Source: Blastococcus sp. (GTDB lineage Bacteria; Actinomycetota; Actinomycetes; Mycobacteriales; Geodermatophilaceae). From it: a DNA stretch of 32,073 nt. The notes beneath the pieces are model-generated. The model was not told the DNA's origin. It ran no database searches and saw only the letters and a list, made by a program, of their open reading frames with translations. This document shows, piece by piece, positions 3,694-30,497 of the stretch (position 1 is its first letter; each line of letters begins with the position of its first letter). The translations under genes and the position numbers were made by a program. Location of the stretch: positions 1-32,073 of the forward strand of contig JAOPWM010000194.1 in the NCBI GenBank assembly GCA_025965695.1. The letters are read 5' to 3'.

Positions 3694-5418
3694 TCAGCCG
3701 TCGGTCAGGGCTGCGGCCGGCAGCCAGTCGGCCTCGAGCAGTTCGGCGATCTCCTGCAGGGACGACGTGTCGGCCCCGGCTGCGGAGCCACTGACCGCCA
3801 GCCGCTCGACCATCACCCGGGCCACCTGCTCCTCCACGGTGTCCTCGGCGAAGGCGATCCGCCACGGCGACGTCCGCCCGTCGCGGTGGGTGCGGCCGGT
3901 GACCTGACGGGCCTGGATGCCGGAGAAGCGCGGCTGGTGGAACAGCCCGACCCGGGGTGTCTCGGAGGCGCTGCGGCCGTCAGGCAGCAGTTCCCCGGCG
4001 TGCAGGCTGATCGACGCCGTCACGGTGAAGACGCAGACCATCGCCTCGCCGCGCTGGAAGCGCAGCCGCTCGCCCTCGACATCGAACCGGTCGCGGCCGT
4101 AGATGCCCGCGACCGGGATGCCGGAGTCGAGCAGCGCCTCGCGGATCGGGTCGGCGGCCGTCTCGACGAACTCGACCGACACCGCGACCTGCCGCTCCGC
4201 CTCGACCTGGGCCTTCACCCAGTCGACGGTTGCCTGCACGCGGATGAGTCCGGCCTTCTGGCGGAACCGCATGAGGGCGGCCCGGCCCTTGGCGCTCTGC
4301 CGCGCGCGCCGGGCCAACTGCATCTCGGCCCGGAACTCCGACCACTCCGACTCGTACGCGGTCCGCTCGGCGGGGGTGAGAGCCACGGGGGTGCCGGTCA
4401 CCGAGACCGGCCCCCACGGCGCCGGCCGGTGCAGCGTCGCCGGCGGGTCGGCCTCGGCCAGCCAGCTCTGCAGCCGGCTGAGGTCCGCGCGGCGCTCGTC
4501 GGCGTCCTCGGTCCACTGCCAGCCGTAGCGGCCACGTTCCACGTGGAACCCGTGCGCGGCGAGCTTCTTCGGGAGGTCGCTCCAGTCACGGAGCGGCTCC
4601 CCGTGCCGGACGGCGAACTCCGGCGCGAGATAGGGCAGCTCGAGGGGCGTGTGCGCCGGTGTCGCCGTCGCGGCCAGGACGAAGGGCGCGTCCTTGACCC
4701 GGCCGGCGCCGGACACCGCCTTCCAGTGCTTCCACCGCTGGGTCGTCGTGTGCCGCACCATGTGCGCCTCGTCGGCGACGATGACGTCGAACGCCAGCTT
4801 CGAGACCTTGGCCAGCCGGTCCCACGTGGTGACGCACCAGCGCAGGTCACCGTCGCCGAACCCGGCGATCGACCGCGTCCAGTGCGGGATGGTGATCGCC
4901 GCCGGGCGGTCGGCCACGACCAGGACGGTCCGGACGTCGCGCTGCTCCGCGATCGCCTTGACGGCGAGGATCGCCGTACCGGTCTTGCCCACGCCCGGAT
5001 CGTCGCCCAGCAGGAAGACCCGCCCGCCGGCGGCCGCATGGGCGGCGACCACGTCGGCGCCGTCGCACTGCTGGTCGCGGGGCGTCATCGGCCGCGCGAG
5101 GGGAAGGGCGCGGGGCTTGTCGTTGAGCTCGTCCTCGAGGAACCGCTCGAAGGAGTAGGGCGGCGGGTCGTAGGCGGCCAGTTCCGGCGGCAGGTCTGCG
5201 CCGACCCAGACGTGCGCCTGCAGGTCGGCGCGCCACACCGCGCCGGGCGCCGGGGCCCGGAACGGGACGGCGAGCACCCACACCCGCTCCCCCGGCCCGG
5301 CGGTGGGCAGGTCGGGCGCGGGCTTCTTCGTGGTACGGCTCGGTGCGGCCTTCGTCGTCCGCTTGCTGGTGGTGGTCGTGCTGCGGCCGGCCGTGGCCCG
5401 GCGCCGTCGTCCCGGCAT
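3694..5418 (-). CDS. SNF2/DEAH-type superfamily II helicase
   Basis: This 574-residue ATPase has a basic, low-complexity N-terminal tail (residues 1-36, rich in R, K, T and S) that could contact nucleic acid. Walker A is GDDPGVGKT at residues 138-146, the DEAH box is VADEAH at about 214-219, motif III is LAATATPAHT, and the C-terminal lobe carries the SNF2-like motif QVTGRTHRDG. The motif set and spacing indicate a SNF2-related superfamily II ATPase that translocates on or remodels nucleic-acid-protein complexes; the substrate is unknown. An ATG at 5418 with GAGGGGG about six bases upstream is preferred over an upstream in-frame start at 5457. No restriction, phage or defence gene is adjacent. 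The gene contains a perfect parS-like palindrome at 4536-4549, read as Phe-His-Val-Glu. Confidence 0.85.
   Translation of the reverse strand: MPGRRRRATAGRSTTTTSKRTTKAAPSRTTKKPAPDLPTAGPGERVWVLAVPFRAPAPGAVWRADLQAHVWVGADLPPELAAYDPPPYSFERFLEDELNDKPRALPLARPMTPRDQQCDGADVVAAHAAAGGRVFLLGDDPGVGKTGTAILAVKAIAEQRDVRTVLVVADRPAAITIPHWTRSIAGFGDGDLRWCVTTWDRLAKVSKLAFDVIVADEAHMVRHTTTQRWKHWKAVSGAGRVKDAPFVLAATATPAHTPLELPYLAPEFAVRHGEPLRDWSDLPKKLAAHGFHVERGRYGWQWTEDADERRADLSRLQSWLAEADPPATLHRPAPWGPVSVTGTPVALTPAERTAYESEWSEFRAEMQLARRARQSAKGRAALMRFRQKAGLIRVQATVDWVKAQVEAERQVAVSVEFVETAADPIREALLDSGIPVAGIYGRDRFDVEGERLRFQRGEAMVCVFTVTASISLHAGELLPDGRSASETPRVGLFHQPRFSGIQARQVTGRTHRDGRTSPWRIAFAEDTVEEQVARVMVERLAVSGSAAGADTSSLQEIAELLEADWLPAAALTDG
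4536..4549. promoter_or_regulatory. Candidate parS (ParB-binding) site 1
   Basis: The 14-bp sequence GTTCCACGTGGAAC is a perfect palindrome with the CACGTG core and GTT/AAC arms typical of chromosomal parS sites. It lies inside the SNF2 helicase coding sequence. An identical copy occurs at 23689-23702. ParB dimers load at such sites and organise the origin region; intragenic parS sites are common in other bacteria. The call is from sequence match only. Confidence 0.7.
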
Positions 5419-23296: not shown

Positions 23297-23608
23297 TCAG
23301 CCGGACTGCTGCATCCGGGGCAGACGGCGGAAGACCTCGGGGCCCACCCGTAGCCCTTCCTCGGCGGAGACCGCCGGGTACACGGAGATGTCGAAGGCGT
23401 CGTTCCATTCGAACTCGATCTCCATGATCGGGGCGACCGTCTCCGCGGCGAACACGGTGACGACCTGGTACTCCCCCGACACGGGCCAGTACTCGGCGAT
23501 CATCGTGACCCCGTCCGGGTACTGCCACGCCGCTCGGCGCATCAGCGCCGCATCGCGCTCGGCGGCGGGAACGGAGGGACGGAAACGCATGAGCGCGACG
23601 AACTCCAT
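23297..23608 (-). CDS. Small DUF3303-like protein
   Basis: This 103-residue cytoplasmic protein begins MEFVALMRFRPSVPAAERDAALMRR. It continues with PDGVTMIAEYWPVSGEYQVVTVFAAETVAPIMEIEFEWNDAFDISVYPAVSAEEGL. The pattern of a small ferredoxin-like alpha/beta domain that opens with a hydrophobic strand and has P-GVTMIAEYW resembles DUF3303 proteins, whose function is unknown. The open frame extends upstream to 23704 through the parS-like palindrome. The ATG at 23608 has GGGGG about six bases upstream and a natural N terminus, so I prefer it. It is convergent with the subtilase gene (27 bp apart). Confidence 0.75.
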   Translation of the reverse strand: MEFVALMRFRPSVPAAERDAALMRRAAWQYPDGVTMIAEYWPVSGEYQVVTVFAAETVAPIMEIEFEWNDAFDISVYPAVSAEEGLRVGPEVFRRLPRMQQSG

Positions 23609-23688
23609 GAGGACCCCCAGGTAGGTGCGGCCCCCGATGCCGGAACGGTAGCGACGCGGGGTGGCTGCCTGAAGGGACGTCGGCCCCG

Positions 23689-23702
23689 GTTCCACGTGGA
23701 AC
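23689..23702. promoter_or_regulatory. Candidate parS (ParB-binding) site 2
   Basis: This is the second identical copy of the perfect palindrome GTTCCACGTGGAAC, here in the intergenic region between the DUF3303-like gene and the NAGGN operon, 19.15 kb from the first copy. The CACGTG core with GTT/AAC arms matches the general chromosomal parS pattern. Confidence 0.7.
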
Positions 23703-23745
23703 ACCGTGGGTGCACGGCATCAGCCGGGACGCGGTGGAGGCGCTC

Positions 23746-23854: not shown

Positions 23855-23860
23855 TTAGAT
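23855..23860 (+). promoter_or_regulatory. Candidate -10 element, leaderless promoter of the NAGGN operon
   Basis: TTAGAT lies eight bases before the ATG at 23869 and no Shine-Dalgarno is present. The spacing predicts that transcription starts at or next to the A of the start codon. No strong -35 is visible, which would suit a regulated or alternative-sigma promoter. Confidence 0.5.
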
Positions 23861-23868
23861 CAGTCTGC

Positions 23869-25650
23869 ATGTGCGGCCTCTGCGGCGAGATCACCTTCGA
23901 CGGATCCCTCGCCGACACGACCGCCGTCGCGCGGATGGTCCAGGCTCTCGTGCCCCGCGGCCCGGACGGGCAGGGGTCCTGGAGCAACGGCCGGGTGGCG
24001 TTCGGCCACCGGCGGCTGTCGGTCATCGACCTGTCCACCTGCGGGTCCCAGCCCATGGTCGACAACGAGCTGGGGCTGACGGCGGTCTTCAACGGCTGCA
24101 TCTACGACTACCAGGAGCTGCGGGCCGAGCTGGAGGGCCACGGCTACCGCTTCTTCTCCCACAGCGACACCGAGGTGATCCTCAAGGGCTATCACCACTG
24201 GGGCACCGACGTCGTCTCGCACCTGCACGGCATGTTCGCCTTCGCCATCCACGAGCGGGACACCGGCCGCGTCGTCCTGGCCCGCGACCGCCTGGGCATC
24301 AAGCCGCTCTACCTCGCCGAGACGCCGGGTCGGCTGCGGTTCGCCTCGACGCTGCCGGCTCTCCTGAAGGCCGGCGACGTCGACACCTCGATCGACCCGG
24401 TCGCGCTGCACCACTACCTGACCTGGCACGCCGTCGTCCCCGCGCCGCGCACCCTGCTCAACGGCGTCCGCAAACTGCCGCCGGCCACCGTCCGGGTGAT
24501 CGAGGCCGACGGCTCGAGCACCGAGCGGCGCTACTGGGAGCCGCGCTACGAGCGGCGTCCCGAGCACGCGAACTGGTCTGCCCGCGACTGGGAGGACGCC
24601 ATCGAGGAGGCGCTGCGGACCGCCGTCCGCCGGCGGCTGGTCGCCGACATCCCCGTCGGTGTGCTGCTCTCGGGGGGGCTGGACTCCAGCCTGATCGTCG
24701 GCCTGCTCGCGCAGGAGGGACAGACGGGCCTGGCGACCTACTCGATCGGCTTCGAGTCCGTCGGGGGCCAGGAGGGTGACGAGTTCGCCTACTCCGACGT
24801 GATCGCCGAGCACTTCGGCACCGACCACCACCGCATCCGGGTGGATTCCGACGAGCTGGCCGGGTCGCTCGCGCACGCGATCGGTGCGATGGCCGAGCCG
24901 ATGGTCAGCCACGACGTCGTCGCCTTCGACCTGCTCAGCGAGCGGGTCAGCCAGTCGATCCGGGTCGTGCAGTCCGGGCAGGGCGCTGACGAGGTCTTCG
25001 CCGGCTACCACTGGTACCCCCCGCTGGCGCGCCTCGGGCGCGAGGCGGCGATCCGGGAGTACGCGAAGCGGTTTTTCGACCGCGACCACGCAGCGATGGG
25101 ACGGGTCGTCTCCGGCCGGTACGCCCTGCCTGCGGACCCGAGCCTGGAGTTCGTCCGCCAGCACATGTCCGGGCCCGGTGCCGAGACCGCGGTGGACGCC
25201 GCGCTGCGACTCGACAGCGAGATCATGCTCGTCGACGACCCGGTGAAGCGCGTGGACAACATGTCCATGGCCTGGGGACTGGAGGCACGGGTGCCCTTCC
25301 TCGATCACGACCTGGTCGAACTGGCCGCCATGTGCCCGCCGGAGCTCAAGCTGGCAGACGGCGGCAAGGGCGTGCTCAAGGCGATCGGCCGCCGGATCAT
25401 CCCGCCGGAGGTCATCGACCGGCCCAAGGGCTACTTCCCGGTGCCGGCGATCACCCACCTCGAGGGCAAGGTGCTCGACCTGGTGCGCGACGCGCTGTCC
25501 ACCGACGCCGCCCGCGAACGCGGGATGTTCCGGCCCGAGTACGTCCGGGAGCTCATTGCCGACCCGAACGGCGAGCTCACCCCGCTGAAGGGCAACAAGC
25601 TCTGGCAACTGGGCCTGCTCGAGCTCTGGCTGCAGACGCACGCGGCCTGA
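23869..25650 (+). CDS. N-acetylglutaminylglutamine amidotransferase (NAGGN biosynthesis)
   Basis: This 593-residue protein is related to asparagine synthase. The N-terminal class II glutaminase domain begins MCGLCGEI with the nucleophile Cys2 exposed after Met removal, and has RGPDGQGSW and GHRRLSVIDLS. The C-terminal synthetase domain has the PP-loop SGGLDSS (268-274), GQGADEVFAGYHWY and KRVDNMSMAWGLEARVPFLDHDLVE. The G-CGSQPM and HHYLTWHAVVPAPRTLL segments match the asnO branch that amidates N-acetylglutaminylglutamine, giving the osmoprotectant NAGGN. The assignment is made firm by the GNAT/ATP-grasp synthetase 15 bp downstream. The ATG has no Shine-Dalgarno and appears leaderless. It is the first gene of a likely six-gene operon. 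Confidence 0.93.
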   Translation: MCGLCGEITFDGSLADTTAVARMVQALVPRGPDGQGSWSNGRVAFGHRRLSVIDLSTCGSQPMVDNELGLTAVFNGCIYDYQELRAELEGHGYRFFSHSDTEVILKGYHHWGTDVVSHLHGMFAFAIHERDTGRVVLARDRLGIKPLYLAETPGRLRFASTLPALLKAGDVDTSIDPVALHHYLTWHAVVPAPRTLLNGVRKLPPATVRVIEADGSSTERRYWEPRYERRPEHANWSARDWEDAIEEALRTAVRRRLVADIPVGVLLSGGLDSSLIVGLLAQEGQTGLATYSIGFESVGGQEGDEFAYSDVIAEHFGTDHHRIRVDSDELAGSLAHAIGAMAEPMVSHDVVAFDLLSERVSQSIRVVQSGQGADEVFAGYHWYPPLARLGREAAIREYAKRFFDRDHAAMGRVVSGRYALPADPSLEFVRQHMSGPGAETAVDAALRLDSEIMLVDDPVKRVDNMSMAWGLEARVPFLDHDLVELAAMCPPELKLADGGKGVLKAIGRRIIPPEVIDRPKGYFPVPAITHLEGKVLDLVRDALSTDAARERGMFRPEYVRELIADPNGELTPLKGNKLWQLGLLELWLQTHAA

Positions 25651-25665
25651 CGTGACGATCACACC

Positions 25666-27429
25666 ATGACGACGACACCCCGGGTGGCCGGGCGCCGCCG
25701 GCGGACGGCGGTGCCCTCGGCGCCGGCCATCACCAGCCGGTCCTGGACCCAGCCCTCCGCGCACCAGCTCCAGGGCATGGCGTCCGACGTCGTCCTCGAC
25801 CTCGGCTGGGGGCGGCTGGTCTTCGGCCAGACCTTCTCCGATCTACATGGCATCGTCGACGCGCTGCGGGCCGAGGAGACCGGTGAGCGCGACATCTGCA
25901 TCTATCCGCGGGACCCGCACGTCCTGGTCGGCCTCGCGCCGGACGAGCTGTTCATCGACCCGAGCTACACCTATCGCCTCGACCTCCACCGCTACCGGCC
26001 CCGGTCGGAGCTGATCCGCGGCGTCTTCGTGCGGACGGTGACCTCGCAGGCCGAGATGGACGAGATCAACGAGATCTACGCCCTCAACGGGATGGTGGTC
26101 GGCGACGCCGACGTCATGTGGGGCAACCACCGCACCCGCTGCTTCACCTATCTCGTCGCCGAGGACCGGCGGACCGGGAAGATCGTCGGCACCGTCACCG
26201 GTGTCGACCACGAGCTCGCGTTCGGGGACCCGGAGGGCGGCACCAGCCTGTGGTGCCTGGCGGTGCGCGCCCAGGACGCCCCGACCGGGACCGGTGAGGC
26301 GCTGGTGCGGGTCCTGGCCGAGCGCTACGTCGGCCGCGGCCGGTCCTATCTCGACCTGTCGGTGATGCACGACAACGAGGGCGCCATCCACCTCTATCGC
26401 AAGCTCGGTTTCACCCGGGTGGCGGCGGTCTGCGTCAAGCGCAAGAACCCGATCAACACCCCGCTGTTCGCCGCCCGCCCGCCGGGTCTGGGGGACCTCA
26501 ACCCCTACGCGACGATCGTCGCCGATGAGGCGCTGCGCCGCGGGATCCGGGTCGAGGTGACCGACGCCGAGTCCGGCGAGCTGCGTCTGTCGGTCGGCGG
26601 CCGGACCGTGGTCACCCTCGAGTCGCTGTCGGAGTTCACCAGTGCCGTGGCGATGAGCCGCTGCGACGACAAGCGGCTGACCCGCCGGATCATGGAGCGG
26701 GCCGGGGTGCGCGTTGCCCGTGGCGCCGTCGCCGGCGAGCGCGATCTCGGCGAGGCGATCGCGCTCATGGGCGAGGTCGGTGCCGTGGTGGTCAAGCCTG
26801 CGCGCGGCGAACAGGGCCGGGGGATCACCGTCGGCGTGCGGGACGAGACCGGGCTGGAGCGGGCGGTCACCCTCGCGCTGCAGTTCTGTCCTGATGTTCT
26901 CGTCGAGGAACTGGTGGACGGCGAGGACCTGCGGGTGATCGTCATCGACCGCAACGTCGTGGCCGCGGCGGTGCGCCGGCCGGCCGAGGTCGTCGGCGAC
27001 GGGCGGCACACCGTCACCGAGCTCGTCCGCTCGACCAGCCGACGGCGGGAGCGGGCCACCGGCGGTGAGTCGCGGATCCCGCTGGACGAGACCACCGCGG
27101 AGGTCGTGGCCGACAGCGGCTACGGCATGGACGACGTCCCGCCGAACGGAGAGCGGATCCGCGTCCGGCGCACGGCGAACCTGCACACCGGCGGGACGAT
27201 CGAGGACGTCACCGCCCGCCTGCACCCGGAGATCGCGAGCGCCTCGGTGCGCGCCGCCGCGGCCCTCGACATCCCGGTGACCGGGCTGGACTTCCTGGTG
27301 CCCGACGTCGAGAGCCCCGACTACGTCTTCATCGAGGCGAACGAGCGGCCCGGGCTGGCCAACCACGAGCCGCAGCCGGTCGCCGAGCGCTTCCTCGACC
27401 TGCTCTTCCCGGAGACCCGCCGTCGCTGA
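25666..27429 (+). CDS. ngg: N-acetylglutaminylglutamine synthetase (GNAT + ATP-grasp fusion)
   Basis: This 587-residue bifunctional enzyme makes the dipeptide N-acetylglutaminylglutamine from two glutamines and acetyl-CoA. The N-terminal GNAT domain covers about 120-270 (TSQAEMDEINEIYALNGMVVGDADVMW, TSLWCLAVRAQDAPTGTGEALVRVLAERY, MHDNEGAIHLYRKLGF). The C-terminal ATP-grasp ligase covers about 290-587 (DKRLTRRIMERAGVRVARG, VVVKPARGEQGRGITVGV, LVEELVDGEDLRVIVID, TGLDFLVPDVESPDYVFIEANERPGLANHEPQP). This fusion is characteristic of the NAGGN pathway of rhizobia and pseudomonads. Length and order are normal. It follows the amidotransferase by 15 bp and precedes crcB by 15 bp. The M42 peptidase gene that often completes NAGGN loci is absent here. 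Confidence 0.94.
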   Translation: MTTTPRVAGRRRRTAVPSAPAITSRSWTQPSAHQLQGMASDVVLDLGWGRLVFGQTFSDLHGIVDALRAEETGERDICIYPRDPHVLVGLAPDELFIDPSYTYRLDLHRYRPRSELIRGVFVRTVTSQAEMDEINEIYALNGMVVGDADVMWGNHRTRCFTYLVAEDRRTGKIVGTVTGVDHELAFGDPEGGTSLWCLAVRAQDAPTGTGEALVRVLAERYVGRGRSYLDLSVMHDNEGAIHLYRKLGFTRVAAVCVKRKNPINTPLFAARPPGLGDLNPYATIVADEALRRGIRVEVTDAESGELRLSVGGRTVVTLESLSEFTSAVAMSRCDDKRLTRRIMERAGVRVARGAVAGERDLGEAIALMGEVGAVVVKPARGEQGRGITVGVRDETGLERAVTLALQFCPDVLVEELVDGEDLRVIVIDRNVVAAAVRRPAEVVGDGRHTVTELVRSTSRRRERATGGESRIPLDETTAEVVADSGYGMDDVPPNGERIRVRRTANLHTGGTIEDVTARLHPEIASASVRAAAALDIPVTGLDFLVPDVESPDYVFIEANERPGLANHEPQPVAERFLDLLFPETRRR

Positions 27430-27444
27430 CGGCACACTCTCGTC

Positions 27445-27831
27445 GTGATCTACCTGCTCGCCGCGCTGGGCGGTGCCCTGGGCGCGCTGGCCCGCTGGGC
27501 GGTCGCGGAGGCCCTGCCGCACTCCCCCGGCGCCTGGCCCTGGTCGACCCTGCTGATCAACCTCACCGGCTGCCTGCTGCTCGGCGCGCTCTTCGCGGTC
27601 CTGGCCGCCCGCGTCCCCGAGCCCTCGTGGGTGCGGCCCTTCGTCGGTGTCGGCGTGCTCGGCGGCTACACCACGTACTCGACGTTCGCCGTCGAGATCG
27701 TCGACCTGACCCGTGGGGGTGCGGCGCTCACGGCGGTGGCCTACCTGCTGTTGTCCGTCGTCGGCGGGGTGCTGGCGGTCGCGCTGGGCGCGGTGACCGC
27801 CCGCAGGGTCGTCGGCGAGGCCCACCCGTGA
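27445..27831 (+). CDS. crcB: CrcB/Fluc fluoride channel subunit 1
   Basis: This 128-residue membrane protein has four helices, a conserved LGALARWAV start, NLTGCLLLGALFAVL (the pore asparagine region) and the signature GGYTTYSTFAVE with the phenylalanine of the fluoride-binding F-box. Fluc channels let fluoride leave the cell. They work as antiparallel dimers, and paired genes usually encode the two oppositely oriented subunits. The GTG at 27445 begins 15 bp after the NAGGN synthetase. The gene overlaps the second crcB by four bases (GTGA). No fluoride riboswitch can fit in the 15-bp gap. Confidence 0.93.
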   Translation: MIYLLAALGGALGALARWAVAEALPHSPGAWPWSTLLINLTGCLLLGALFAVLAARVPEPSWVRPFVGVGVLGGYTTYSTFAVEIVDLTRGGAALTAVAYLLLSVVGGVLAVALGAVTARRVVGEAHP

Positions 27832-28184
27832 CGCCGCTGCTGGTCGTCGCGGGTGCTCTGGTGGGGGCGCCGCTGCGGCTGTTCGCTTCCCGGCGGGCGA
27901 TCCGGACGGGGCGTGACCCGGCAGTCGGGACCCTGGCCGTGAACGTCGCCGGCAGCGCCCTCCTCGGTGTGGTCCTCGGCCTGGCCGACGTGCCGGAGTG
28001 GATGGTCGCCCTGGTGGGTGTCGGCTTCTGCGGGGCCCTCACCACCTTCTCCACGTTCGGCGCCGACGTCGTCCGGCTGGTGGAGGAACGGGTACTCGGG
28101 CGGGCGGTCGCCTACCTGATCGCGACGCTCGTCCTCGGCGTGGGTGCCGCCGCGGCCGGTCACGGACTGGCCGGGCTGCTCTGA
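27828..28184 (+). CDS. crcB: CrcB/Fluc fluoride channel subunit 2
   Basis: This 118-residue protein is the partner channel subunit. It has four helices, TLAVNVAGSALLGVVLGL (pore asparagine) and GFCGALTTFSTFGADVV (F-box with Phe-Ser-Thr-Phe), and an unusual basic first loop (FASRRAIRTGRDP). Its GTG overlaps the stop of subunit 1, so the two are translated together in equal amounts, as expected for a heterodimer of opposite topology. The open frame reaches back to 27627, but only the GTG at 27828 gives a normal Fluc N terminus. It precedes otsA by 30 bp. Confidence 0.92.
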   Translation: MTPLLVVAGALVGAPLRLFASRRAIRTGRDPAVGTLAVNVAGSALLGVVLGLADVPEWMVALVGVGFCGALTTFSTFGADVVRLVEERVLGRAVAYLIATLVLGVGAAAAGHGLAGLL

Positions 28185-28214
28185 TCCCGGCCGGTCGGTA
28201 GGGTCGGGGGCGGT

Positions 28215-29705
28215 ATGGCGGACAAGACGGAGCAGCACACGGGGGCGGACAGTCCTGTGGTCGTCGTCGCCAACCGGCTCCCGGTCGACCAGGTGACCGA
28301 TCCCGACGGCACCACGCGATGGCAGCGCAGCCCCGGAGGCCTCGTCACTGCGCTGGAGCCCTTCGTGGCCGGCCGCGGCGGCGCGTGGGTGGGTTGGTCC
28401 GGCTCGGCCGGCGAGGCCCCGGAACCCTTCGAGTCCGGCGGGATGTCGCTGATCCCGGTGCCGCTGACCGAGGAAGAGGTCGACCGCTACTACGAGGGCA
28501 TGTCGAACGCGTCCTTGTGGCCGCTCTACCACGACGTCGTCGAGAAGCCGGAGTACCACCGGGCCTGGTGGGACACCTACGTGCAGGTCAACAAGCGGTT
28601 CGCCGAGCGGGCCGCGGCCGTCGCCGCCGAGAACGCCATCGTCTGGGTGCACGACTATCAGCTGCAACTGGTCCCGGCGCTGCTGCGCCAACAGCGGCCG
28701 GACCTCACCATCGGCTTCTTCCTGCACATCCCCTTCCCGCCGTACGAGCTGTTCACCCAGTTGCCGTGGCGGTCGGCGATCGTGGAAGGGCTGCTCGGTG
28801 CCGACCTGGTCGGCTTCCAGCGCCCGGCGGCCGCGACGAACTTCGTCCAGCTCGCCCGCCGACTGCACGATCTGCCGGCTCGCGGTCAGGTCGTCGAGTA
28901 CGACGGCCGGACGGTGGCCGCCCGCGCCTTCCCGATCTCCATCGACGTCGCCGCGTTCGACGAGCTGGCCCGCTCCCCCGAGGTGCTGGCCCGGGCGGAG
29001 GAGATCCGCAAGGAGCTGGGCAACCCGTCGAAGATCATCCTGGGCGTGGACCGGCTGGACTACACCAAGGGCATCGGTGTGCGCCTGGCCGCTTTCGAGG
29101 AGCTGCTCGAGGACGGCGCGGTCGAGGCCCCGGACACCGTCCTGGTGCAGGTGGCCACCCCGAGCCGCGAACGCGTCGAGCACTACGTCCACATGCGGGA
29201 GACGATCGAGCAGCAGGTGGGCCACATCAACGGGGTCTTCGGCTCGATCGCCGGCCCGGCGGTCCACTACTTCAACCAATCGATGCCCCGTGAGGAGCTG
29301 GCCGCGCTGTACCGGGCGGCCGACGTCATGCTCGTGACCCCGTACCGCGACGGGATGAATCTGGTCGCGAAGGAGTACGTCGCCGCCCGGGGTGACCTCG
29401 GCGGGGCGCTCGTCCTGTCGGAGTTCGCCGGCGCAGCCGCGGAGCTCAAGCAGGCCTTCCTGGTCAATCCGCACGACATCGCCGGGGTGAAGAGCCAGTT
29501 GGTCCGCGCCCTGCGGATGGATGCGACCGAGGGCGCCAAGCGGATGCGGGCGATGCGCCGCCATCTCGCCCGGAACGATCTCGAGCACTGGGCGAACTCC
29601 TTCTTCGACGCGCTCCGCGGTCAGGCTGCCGGCCAGCCGACCGGCCGGGAGGCCGGCCGTGAGTCGGCCCCGCTCTCGCGGGACCGTGGCGGAGCCCAGG
29701 GATGA
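28215..29705 (+). CDS. otsA: Trehalose-6-phosphate synthase
   Basis: This 496-residue GT20 glycosyltransferase joins a nucleotide-activated glucose (UDP-, GDP- or ADP-glucose) to glucose 6-phosphate to give trehalose 6-phosphate. The visible family elements are [10 protein letters not shown] near the N terminus, [63 protein letters not shown] and [16 protein letters not shown], all in normal order. The last 30 residues ([23 protein letters not shown]) are a low-complexity tail. The ATG at 28215 has a GGGGG leader. The stop codon overlaps the first start codon in a repeated junction with otsB. Trehalose protects against desiccation, salt and heat. Confidence 0.96.
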
Positions 29706-29763
29706 CGCTTGCCCAAGGGTGACGCGGGCCCAGGAATGAGCCGGAGCCCAGGAGTGAGCGACC
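29694..29763 (+). repeat. Four tandem 17-18-bp repeats at the otsA-otsB junction with two minicistrons
   Basis: Four imperfect copies of gcccaggRRTGA-plus-linker follow each other: 29694-29710, 29711-29727, 29728-29745 and 29746-29763. Each carries an AGG-type ribosome site and an RTGA stop/start overlap. The otsA TGA overlaps an ATG at 29702 that encodes MTLAQG. Its TGA overlaps a GTG at 29719 that encodes a six-codon peptide starting VTRAQE. The TGA of that peptide overlaps the ATG of otsB at 29736. Confidence 0.85.
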
Positions 29764-30497
29764 TCCCGGCGGAGCTGGACGCGGCGCTGGCCGAGTTCGC
29801 CAGCCGTCGTCCGCTGCTCGTCGCGAGCGACTATGACGGAGTCCTCGCCCGGCTGCGGGACGAGCCGTCGGCGGCGGTGCCGGAGGAGGGTGTCGCCGAG
29901 ACGCTGGCCCGCCTGGCCGGCGTGCCCGGCGTGACGGTGGCGATCGTCAGCGGGCGGGGCGTGGAGGACCTGCAGGCGACCAGTGGGCTGTCGGGACCGT
30001 TCCGCTGGGTGGGCAGTCACGGCGAGGAGTTCGACGGCCCGCTCGCCGGAGACCTCGCACACCGGCGCGACGAGCTGGCCGCGGTTCTGGCGCCGGCCGT
30101 CGCCGACGTCCCGGGCGCCCGCCTCGAGATCAAGCCGGCGAGCGTGGCCGTGCACGTTCGCATGGTCCAGGACCGCGCGGTTGCGGCTTCGGTGCTGGAG
30201 CGGGCCGGCACGCTCGTGGATTCGTCACTGACGTTGAAGCCGGGCAAGAACGTCCTCGAGGTCGCCGTCACCGACGCGGACAAGGGCACGGCGCTGCGGC
30301 GACTGATCACCGAACTCGACGACGCCGCGGCGATGTACCTCGGCGACGACGTCACCGACGAGGACGCCTTCCGCGCACTGCGGCCCGATGACCTCACGGT
30401 CAAGATCGGGGACGGCCCCACGGACGCCCGTCATCGGGTCGCCGACCCCGCCGGCGCGCTCGCCGTGCTGCGCCGCCTCGGTGACCTGCTCGCCTGA
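29736..30497 (+). CDS. otsB: Trehalose-6-phosphate phosphatase
   Basis: This 253-residue HAD-superfamily phosphatase removes the phosphate from trehalose 6-phosphate to give trehalose. Motif I is ASDYDGVLA, with the nucleophilic aspartate at about residue 31. Motif II is IVSGR, the sugar-binding region has GSHGEEFDGP, and the metal-binding motif IV is GDDVTDEDAF. Length is normal for bacterial OtsB. Possible starts in frame are TTG 29709, ATG 29736 and GTG 29754; I prefer ATG 29736 because its ATGA overlaps the preceding minicistron stop. Translation is therefore probably coupled to otsA through two short cistrons. It is the last gene of the compatible-solute operon. Confidence 0.93.
   Translation: MSRSPGVSDLPAELDAALAEFASRRPLLVASDYDGVLARLRDEPSAAVPEEGVAETLARLAGVPGVTVAIVSGRGVEDLQATSGLSGPFRWVGSHGEEFDGPLAGDLAHRRDELAAVLAPAVADVPGARLEIKPASVAVHVRMVQDRAVAASVLERAGTLVDSSLTLKPGKNVLEVAVTDADKGTALRRLITELDDAAAMYLGDDVTDEDAFRALRPDDLTVKIGDGPTDARHRVADPAGALAVLRRLGDLLA

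Follow-up and report, generated by a model that had tools for sequence, protein, structure and literature searches.

Genes for NAGGN synthesis, a paired fluoride channel and trehalose synthesis share a neighbourhood, probably of two or three units, in Geodermatophilaceae

Introduction

Do six genes that share one strand and combine two osmoprotectant pathways with a fluoride channel form one stress operon, or do they belong to several units that lie side by side? This question is raised by a stretch of 32,073 nucleotides from a Blastococcus sp. of the Geodermatophilaceae family (contig JAOPWM010000194.1 of assembly GCA_025965695.1; hereafter the window, C48:1-32073 in our numbering), where asnO and ngg for the synthesis of N-acetylglutaminylglutamine amide (NAGGN), two crcB genes and the trehalose genes otsA and otsB follow one another on the plus strand. 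NAGGN and trehalose are both osmoprotectants, and a preliminary description of this DNA had proposed one conserved six-gene stress operon that makes both solutes with fluoride handling built in. Its account of the row itself stands: all six open reading frames are present, their families are as named, and the gaps of 15, 15, -4 and 30 bp agree with the coordinates given below. The source genome is a 4.09 Mb draft in 317 contigs (81.5% complete), and the closest named relative of its ngg comes from the Blastococcus metagenome-assembled genome RYN_128 (94% identity), with the next ones mostly from Blastococcus and Geodermatophilus.

Our analysis corrects the tempting operon reading. Quite probably, the row is a Geodermatophilaceae stress-gene neighbourhood composed of two or three ordinary units rather than a single dedicated operon, with separate starts for asnO-ngg and otsAB and the crcB pair between them. 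The solute genes in question are common to the family, since GT20 (OtsA-type) proteins occur in 108 of 112 genomes and ngg in 78.

Conservation of the neighbourhood

We scored profile matches for TIGR03104 (AsnO), TIGR03103 (Ngg), CRCB and GT20 in 112 Geodermatophilaceae genomes and compared them with an order-wide sample of 68 genomes from other families of the same order. CRCB is found in 109 of the family genomes, and in 74 of the 78 genomes with ngg above cut-off this gene is found up to 12 kb 5' of otsA and in the same orientation, so that the neighbourhood is not a matter of chance. Among the four exceptions, the cassette sits at a contig end in three (G005, G035 and G060), and the genes are truly apart in G088. 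The gene order singled out in the preliminary description thus recurs in relatives and is not confined to one genome. At least 95 family genomes, 20 of which lack ngg, have crcB no more than 8 kb from otsA, and G014 likewise has crcB near otsA beyond that count (crcB places were typed in 107 of the 109 crcB-bearing genomes, mostly one place each). Two loci, one titled Bacillus (L044, UNVERIFIED_ORG) and one titled Frankiales (L056), were assigned to the family by sequence.

Outside the family, ngg is present in 10 of the 68 genomes; five of these ten have it on one contig with otsA, the nearest at 69 kb, and none has it within 12 kb 5' of otsA. Linkage of crcB to otsA was not seen in the order-wide sample either, where both genes occur in 63 of 68 genomes and never closer than 192 kb, with only 20 having them on one contig and one crcB place typed per genome. 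The available flanking DNA of 42 named NAGGN loci outside the family, some of it short, holds no match to crcB or otsA. NAGGN genes 5' of crcB-crcB-otsA-otsB are therefore a trait of the Geodermatophilaceae. A variant of the row occurs in L036 and G033:C112, where otsA lies directly 3' of ngg at a gap of about 155-173 bp without crcB between them.

Candidate promoters and unit structure

Two conserved hexamers divide the row. The promoter-like (-10) element TTAGAT lies at 23855..23860 on the plus strand, 8 nt before the asnO ATG, and 33 of 34 distinct loci show the pattern TTRGAT (as TTAGAT or TTGGAT) 5-12 nt 5' of their asnO start, compared with 5 of 11600 random 18-nt stretches. The second such element, TAGGGT at 28199..28204 (plus strand), stands 10 nt before the otsA ATG; of 50 distinct loci, 49 (the window among them) have it close to the otsA start, compared with 44 of 11600 random 90-nt stretches. 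It is followed 5-10 nt on by an ATG or TTG start codon in 46 of the 50, and is retained in loci where something other than crcB2 stands ahead of it. The counts for these two hexamers use distinct loci with repeats removed, and L053, whose match starts late, is excluded from the TAGGGT count. In high-GC actinobacteria, according to the available excerpt of PMC3160421, TANNNT about 10-12 bp 5' of the start marks leaderless genes, and the conserved elements before asnO and otsA resemble this TA-type signal. Because they precede asnO and otsA, asnO-ngg and otsAB are probably separate units, and we infer from the elements that asnO and otsA each have a transcription start of their own. In the short ngg-crcB1 junction of the window, GGCACACT (27431..27438, plus strand) is a possible weak remnant of a crcB1 promoter.

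The junction of ngg and crcB1

The row is most variable between ngg and crcB1. Among 38 named family loci, ngg, crcB and otsA stand together in 33, and in 17 of these an opposite-strand gene separates ngg from crcB1. It is a coenzyme A (CoA)-transferase gene in 15 loci (PF02515, identified from one representative scanned), a GGDEF-EAL gene in L049 and a histidine kinase gene in L038; a same-strand TerC gene or its remnant occupies this place in 4 of the 33 loci, and the gap is small in 12. At the level of genomes, 71 have ngg and crcB on one strand within 8 kb, with match-to-match gaps of at most 358 bp in 24 and of 1.2-4.2 kb in 46, and G107 is scored at 839 bp, its other crcB lying about 100 bp from ngg.

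The window belongs to the compact type, and this looks like the result of a loss of the CoA-transferase gene, by which separate transcription units would have become fused locally. In the otsA tree, Blastococcus with the CoA-transferase gene surround the window and RYN_128, with moderate support (SH-like approximate likelihood ratio test values of 85-93 on the enclosing forks). Of 16 Blastococcus genomes, 12 contain a CoA-transferase copy of at least 84% identity (in pieces in G032), and the 81.5% complete draft of the window holds no close copy, the best match reaching 35% identity; in G031, which is 99% complete, it is 59% at best. An assembly artefact at this junction is unlikely, as the same GGCACACT junction occurs in RYN_128 (L033) and G031 (L153). 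Of 15 crcB loci fetched from genomes that lack ngg, 6 likewise have the CoA-transferase gene next to crcB1, and the order with CoA-transferase beside crcB1 is probably the older one.

The parS-like site upstream of asnO

A parS-like palindrome, GTTCCACGTGGAAC, lies at 23689..23702, 166 bp 5' of asnO, and a second copy is found in the window at 4536-4549. Each of the 10 genomes searched holds 7-12 copies of the GTTYCACGTGRAAC form and none of the reversed pattern used as a control. Because of this copy number, we reject the palindrome as a private asnO operator as the main reading. It is likely a chromosomal parS site: by hit counts, its 16-mer form occurs in four parS papers, and the half-site GTTCCAC is mentioned in PMC7022226. 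The gene divergent from asnO encodes a DUF3303 protein (23297-23704), and its first-listed start codon abuts the palindrome; the true start of this gene is probably further in.

Among 46 distinct family loci, 38 have the site no more than 400 bp 5' of the NAGGN cassette (45 of 54 counting repeats; L161, with neither asnO nor ngg to score, is excluded), at a distance of 33-226 bp where present and including 7 distinct loci with ngg as the first gene. It is missing within that range in 8 of the 46. Four of these are ngg-first: L163 is a contig fragment, and L067, L068 and L162 appear to be additional ngg copies. The copies in L067 and L068, both Geodermatophilus-type, have no adjoining asnO. None of 37 loci outside the family and none of 20 loci of a second type of asnO (asnO-B, described below) has a parS-like site within 400 bp upstream. 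The site beside the NAGGN cassette is a new observation.

In seven complete genomes (G007, G009, G022, G042, G046, G047 and G061, their contigs taken as circular), copies of the palindrome cluster round dnaA, and one copy lies about 74-92 bp 5' of asnO. The distance from asnO to dnaA is about 69 kb in G046 and 76 kb in G042, the two complete genomes with both genes inside the contig; in the complete genomes that were checked, the neighbourhood is thus close to the replication origin. Against such clustering stands G078, a genome without ngg, where among the matches listed one copy is 356 kb from its dnaA. Closeness to the origin is also what a plain positional neighbourhood would offer, in which unrelated housekeeping and stress genes have stayed together only because rearrangement is rare and share no regulatory or metabolic coupling. 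That aldo-keto reductase (AKR), CoA-transferase and methyl-accepting chemotaxis protein genes are recurrent neighbours of the locus, and that most genomes have one set each of crcB and otsA, fits this explanation, yet ngg and otsAB both serve osmoprotectant pathways and the compact order appears several times, and we regard it as possible, if somewhat doubtful.

The position of the palindrome might alternatively mean that ParB, bound there, influences NAGGN synthesis and links the supply of this osmolyte with the segregation of the chromosome or with growth state. The regularity of the site upstream of the cassette, ngg-first loci included, speaks for this idea, and so does the statement in the available part of PMC7022226 that ParB affects some genes near parS; the same part reports Spo0J to be without effect on genes beside its sites, and the eight family loci lacking the palindrome are a further point against it. 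Moreover, two of the four scanned loci without ngg (L134 and L145, not L133 and L135) carry a parS-like copy near the same place, so that the site need not serve asnO and may predate the NAGGN cassette. We consider control by ParB most improbable. The parS-like site beside the cassette provides an easy test of whether ParB affects an adjacent metabolic gene.

The crcB pair

The two crcB genes overlap by 4 bp. The product of crcB1 (27445..27831, plus strand), predicted to be the first subunit of a paired fluoride channel, scores 86.6 bits with TIGR00494 (cut-off 80.45) and 99.9 with PF02537. That of crcB2 (27828..28184, plus strand), the predicted second subunit, reaches 83.8 with PF02537 (cut-off 32.9) and falls slightly below the cut-off of TIGR00494 (75.0 vs 80.45). 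Aligned to Fluc 5a40, CrcB1 (66 bits) has TTYSTF in place of TTFSTF and retains the pore Asn, and CrcB2 (37 bits) retains both TTFSTF and the pore Asn. We take the conserved pore Asn and a TTFSTF-type motif to be the residues that matter in Fluc/CrcB channels.

Exactly two crcB matches are present in 103 of the 112 family genomes. Ordinary fluoride export explains the pair for this reason, and the proposed tie between fluoride handling and osmoprotection is not needed; the crcB pair is probably an ordinary fluoride exporter. Control by a fluoride riboswitch was rejected, with 0 Rfam matches at the gathering score in the window and seven related loci. In L047, L057, L061 and L073 from Geodermatophilus and Trujillonella, crcB1 is preceded by a long inverted repeat of the form GGCATAGGAAGCT ... 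AGCTTCCTATGCC or similar, which has no Rfam match in L061.

One unit or several

In the arrangement that we favour, asnO-ngg would form a first unit for NAGGN synthesis with its own near-leaderless promoter 3' of the parS-like site, crcB1-crcB2 a second one encoding a heterodimeric fluoride channel, and otsA-otsB a third one for trehalose synthesis with TAGGGT as its promoter. An older order would probably have read AKR (opposite strand), parS, CoA-transferase (opposite strand), crcB1, crcB2, otsA and otsB. Between parS and the CoA-transferase gene, asnO-ngg would then have been inserted. Loss of the CoA-transferase gene in the lineage of the window would have left ngg 15 bp from crcB1, so that read-through from asnO-ngg into crcB would be likely there. 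The sequence shows the gene families, their order and the conserved elements, from which we infer the direction of each of these changes as well as promoter function and read-through.

Several observations weigh against this picture. A spacing of 15 bp between ngg and crcB1 would be in keeping with a single transcript, as would the overlap of the two crcB genes, and a search between the six genes revealed no terminator-like sites. The crcB1 motif is weak, with a loose GCAYNCT within 80 nt upstream in 28 of 52 loci (some duplicate) and in 374 of 10800 random stretches. TTAGAT does not fit TANNNT, in L142, L152 and L158 TAGGGT is not followed by a start codon at short distance, and L150 is without TAGGGT. 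A scan for the sigma-70 consensus gave no sites, and such scans are of little use in high-GC actinobacteria. On the otsA tree, with 36 rows scored, the order switches between compact and spaced at least 9 times, and on the ngg tree 8 times, which could reflect selection for fusion. Furthermore, OtsA of the window remains below the equivalog cut-off of TIGR02400 (544.4 vs 564.85), the window's own draft genome has no DnaA match, and 9 of the 15 fetched crcB loci without ngg have no CoA-transferase match, which is why we offer the older gene order only with reserve.

Part of this is what one six-gene stress operon that makes NAGGN and trehalose with fluoride export built in would predict: the single strand and the short gaps, a close ngg-crcB junction in a good number of genomes, repeated shifts to compact order and no terminator-like site inside. 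Such an operon is nonetheless at odds with the lack of same-strand contiguity in 17 of the 33 named family loci, with TAGGGT being kept before otsA even where other DNA lies ahead and with the 20 genomes that keep crcB by otsA without ngg, and we judge it unlikely. Bolder still, and in our opinion hardly probable, is the idea that the NAGGN cassette was captured at an origin-proximal parS under the influence of ParB and fused stepwise to fluoride export and trehalose synthesis by repeated removal of the intervening gene; if true, it would wire a compatible-solute pathway to chromosome partitioning. The portions of the literature covered by our search hold nothing pointing to the combined neighbourhood or to a link between parS and osmolytes. 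The division into two or three units remains the reading that we prefer.

Enzymes of the two pathways and a second asnO clade

The pathway assignments are borne out by family models, from which the enzyme activities in this organism are predicted. Both NAGGN enzymes clear their curated cut-offs by wide margins: asnO (23869..25650, plus strand), encoding an N-acetylglutaminylglutamine amidotransferase, reaches 986.7 bits with TIGR03104 (cut-off 570.1), and ngg (25666..27429, plus strand), encoding an N-acetylglutaminylglutamine synthetase of GNAT and ATP-grasp parts, reaches 800.9 with TIGR03103 (cut-off 569). The available portion of PMC8070244 describes the pathway as acetylation of one glutamine by Ngg, which also joins a second glutamine to it, followed by amidation by AsnO to give NAGGN. 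The trehalose-6-phosphate synthase gene otsA (28215..29705, plus strand) scores 492.9 bits with PF00982, above its cut-off, and the closest solved structure of its product is the alpha,alpha-trehalose-phosphate synthase 5jij (611 bits), with all best solved structures being such synthases; exactly one GT20 match is present in each of the 108 family genomes mentioned above. The gene otsB (about 29709-30497, plus strand; start uncertain) is a predicted trehalose-6-phosphate phosphatase gene (TIGR00685, 108.6 vs cut-off 68.05). Its junction with otsA had been described as coupled, and the two genes are indeed adjacent; the spacing depends on the start chosen and is 3 bp for TTG at 29709, 30 bp for ATG at 29736 or 48 bp for GTG at 29754.

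TIGR03104 is matched above cut-off in 96 of the 112 family genomes, and since 19 of these have no ngg above cut-off, this model for the NAGGN amidotransferase, judged by its profile matches, over-calls NAGGN. A tree of asnO proteins with 64 rows separates 20 asnO-B proteins from the ngg-linked ones, and AsnO of the window groups with the latter. Clustering of neighbours, based on a simple gene caller, finds one neighbour in 19 of the 20 asnO-B loci and another in 12, and Pfam identifies them in two loci as a circularly permuted ATP-grasp ligase and an S9 peptidase. This second asnO clade beside another ligase is a new observation and, like the parS-like site, deserves specialist attention. The genome of the window has a second asnO-type gene as well (G000:C213 8895-10664; L113 5981-12637), lying between ligase and S9 peptidase genes, and the adjoining ligase is fused to GCS2 in this genome.

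Among ten Modestobacter-type genomes with ngg, only G088 has an adjoining asnO; of the others, G098 is without a TIGR03104 match and eight carry a single one elsewhere, and the TIGR03104 proteins of the four placed in the tree (G085, G089, G101 and G105) are asnO-B. The Modestobacter-type loci L062-L066 and L156-L160 read ngg-crcB-otsA with a parS-like site 33-84 bp upstream and no asnO beside ngg. Partial ngg matches occur in G043, G046, G049, G055 and G063.

Comparison with known systems

The preliminary description had found the combination noteworthy for a high-GC Gram-positive bacterium. The combined neighbourhood is real, yet NAGGN genes as such have already been published in Gram-positive relatives, as seen in the available parts of the reports on Frankia (PMC5768760) and Micromonospora (PMC8146288). 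In nearly all of the loci compared from other Actinomycetota (Micromonospora, Jiangella, Kineococcus, Salinispora and others), asnO lies immediately 5' of ngg on the same strand, as it does here. The asnO-ngg locus of Sinorhizobium meliloti and PA3459-PA3461 of Pseudomonas aeruginosa likewise comprise the same two enzyme families with asnO before ngg, and the P. aeruginosa locus has a third gene for an aminopeptidase and a divergent MarR regulator (PMC8070244, as far as available). Neither of these two is among the nine window proteins scanned, and unlike at the S. meliloti and P. aeruginosa loci, the crcB and ots genes come after asnO-ngg here.

Paired CrcB proteins form heterodimeric fluoride channels, and two tandem homologous crcB genes are found in the window as for La1/La2 (available portion of PMC3755343); compared with known Fluc/CrcB pairs, the pair described here is distinguished by its place between ngg and otsA. 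Similarly, otsA and otsB are of the same enzyme families and adjacent to each other as in the OtsA-OtsB pathway of actinobacteria, from which the linkage to the crcB pair sets otsAB of the window apart.

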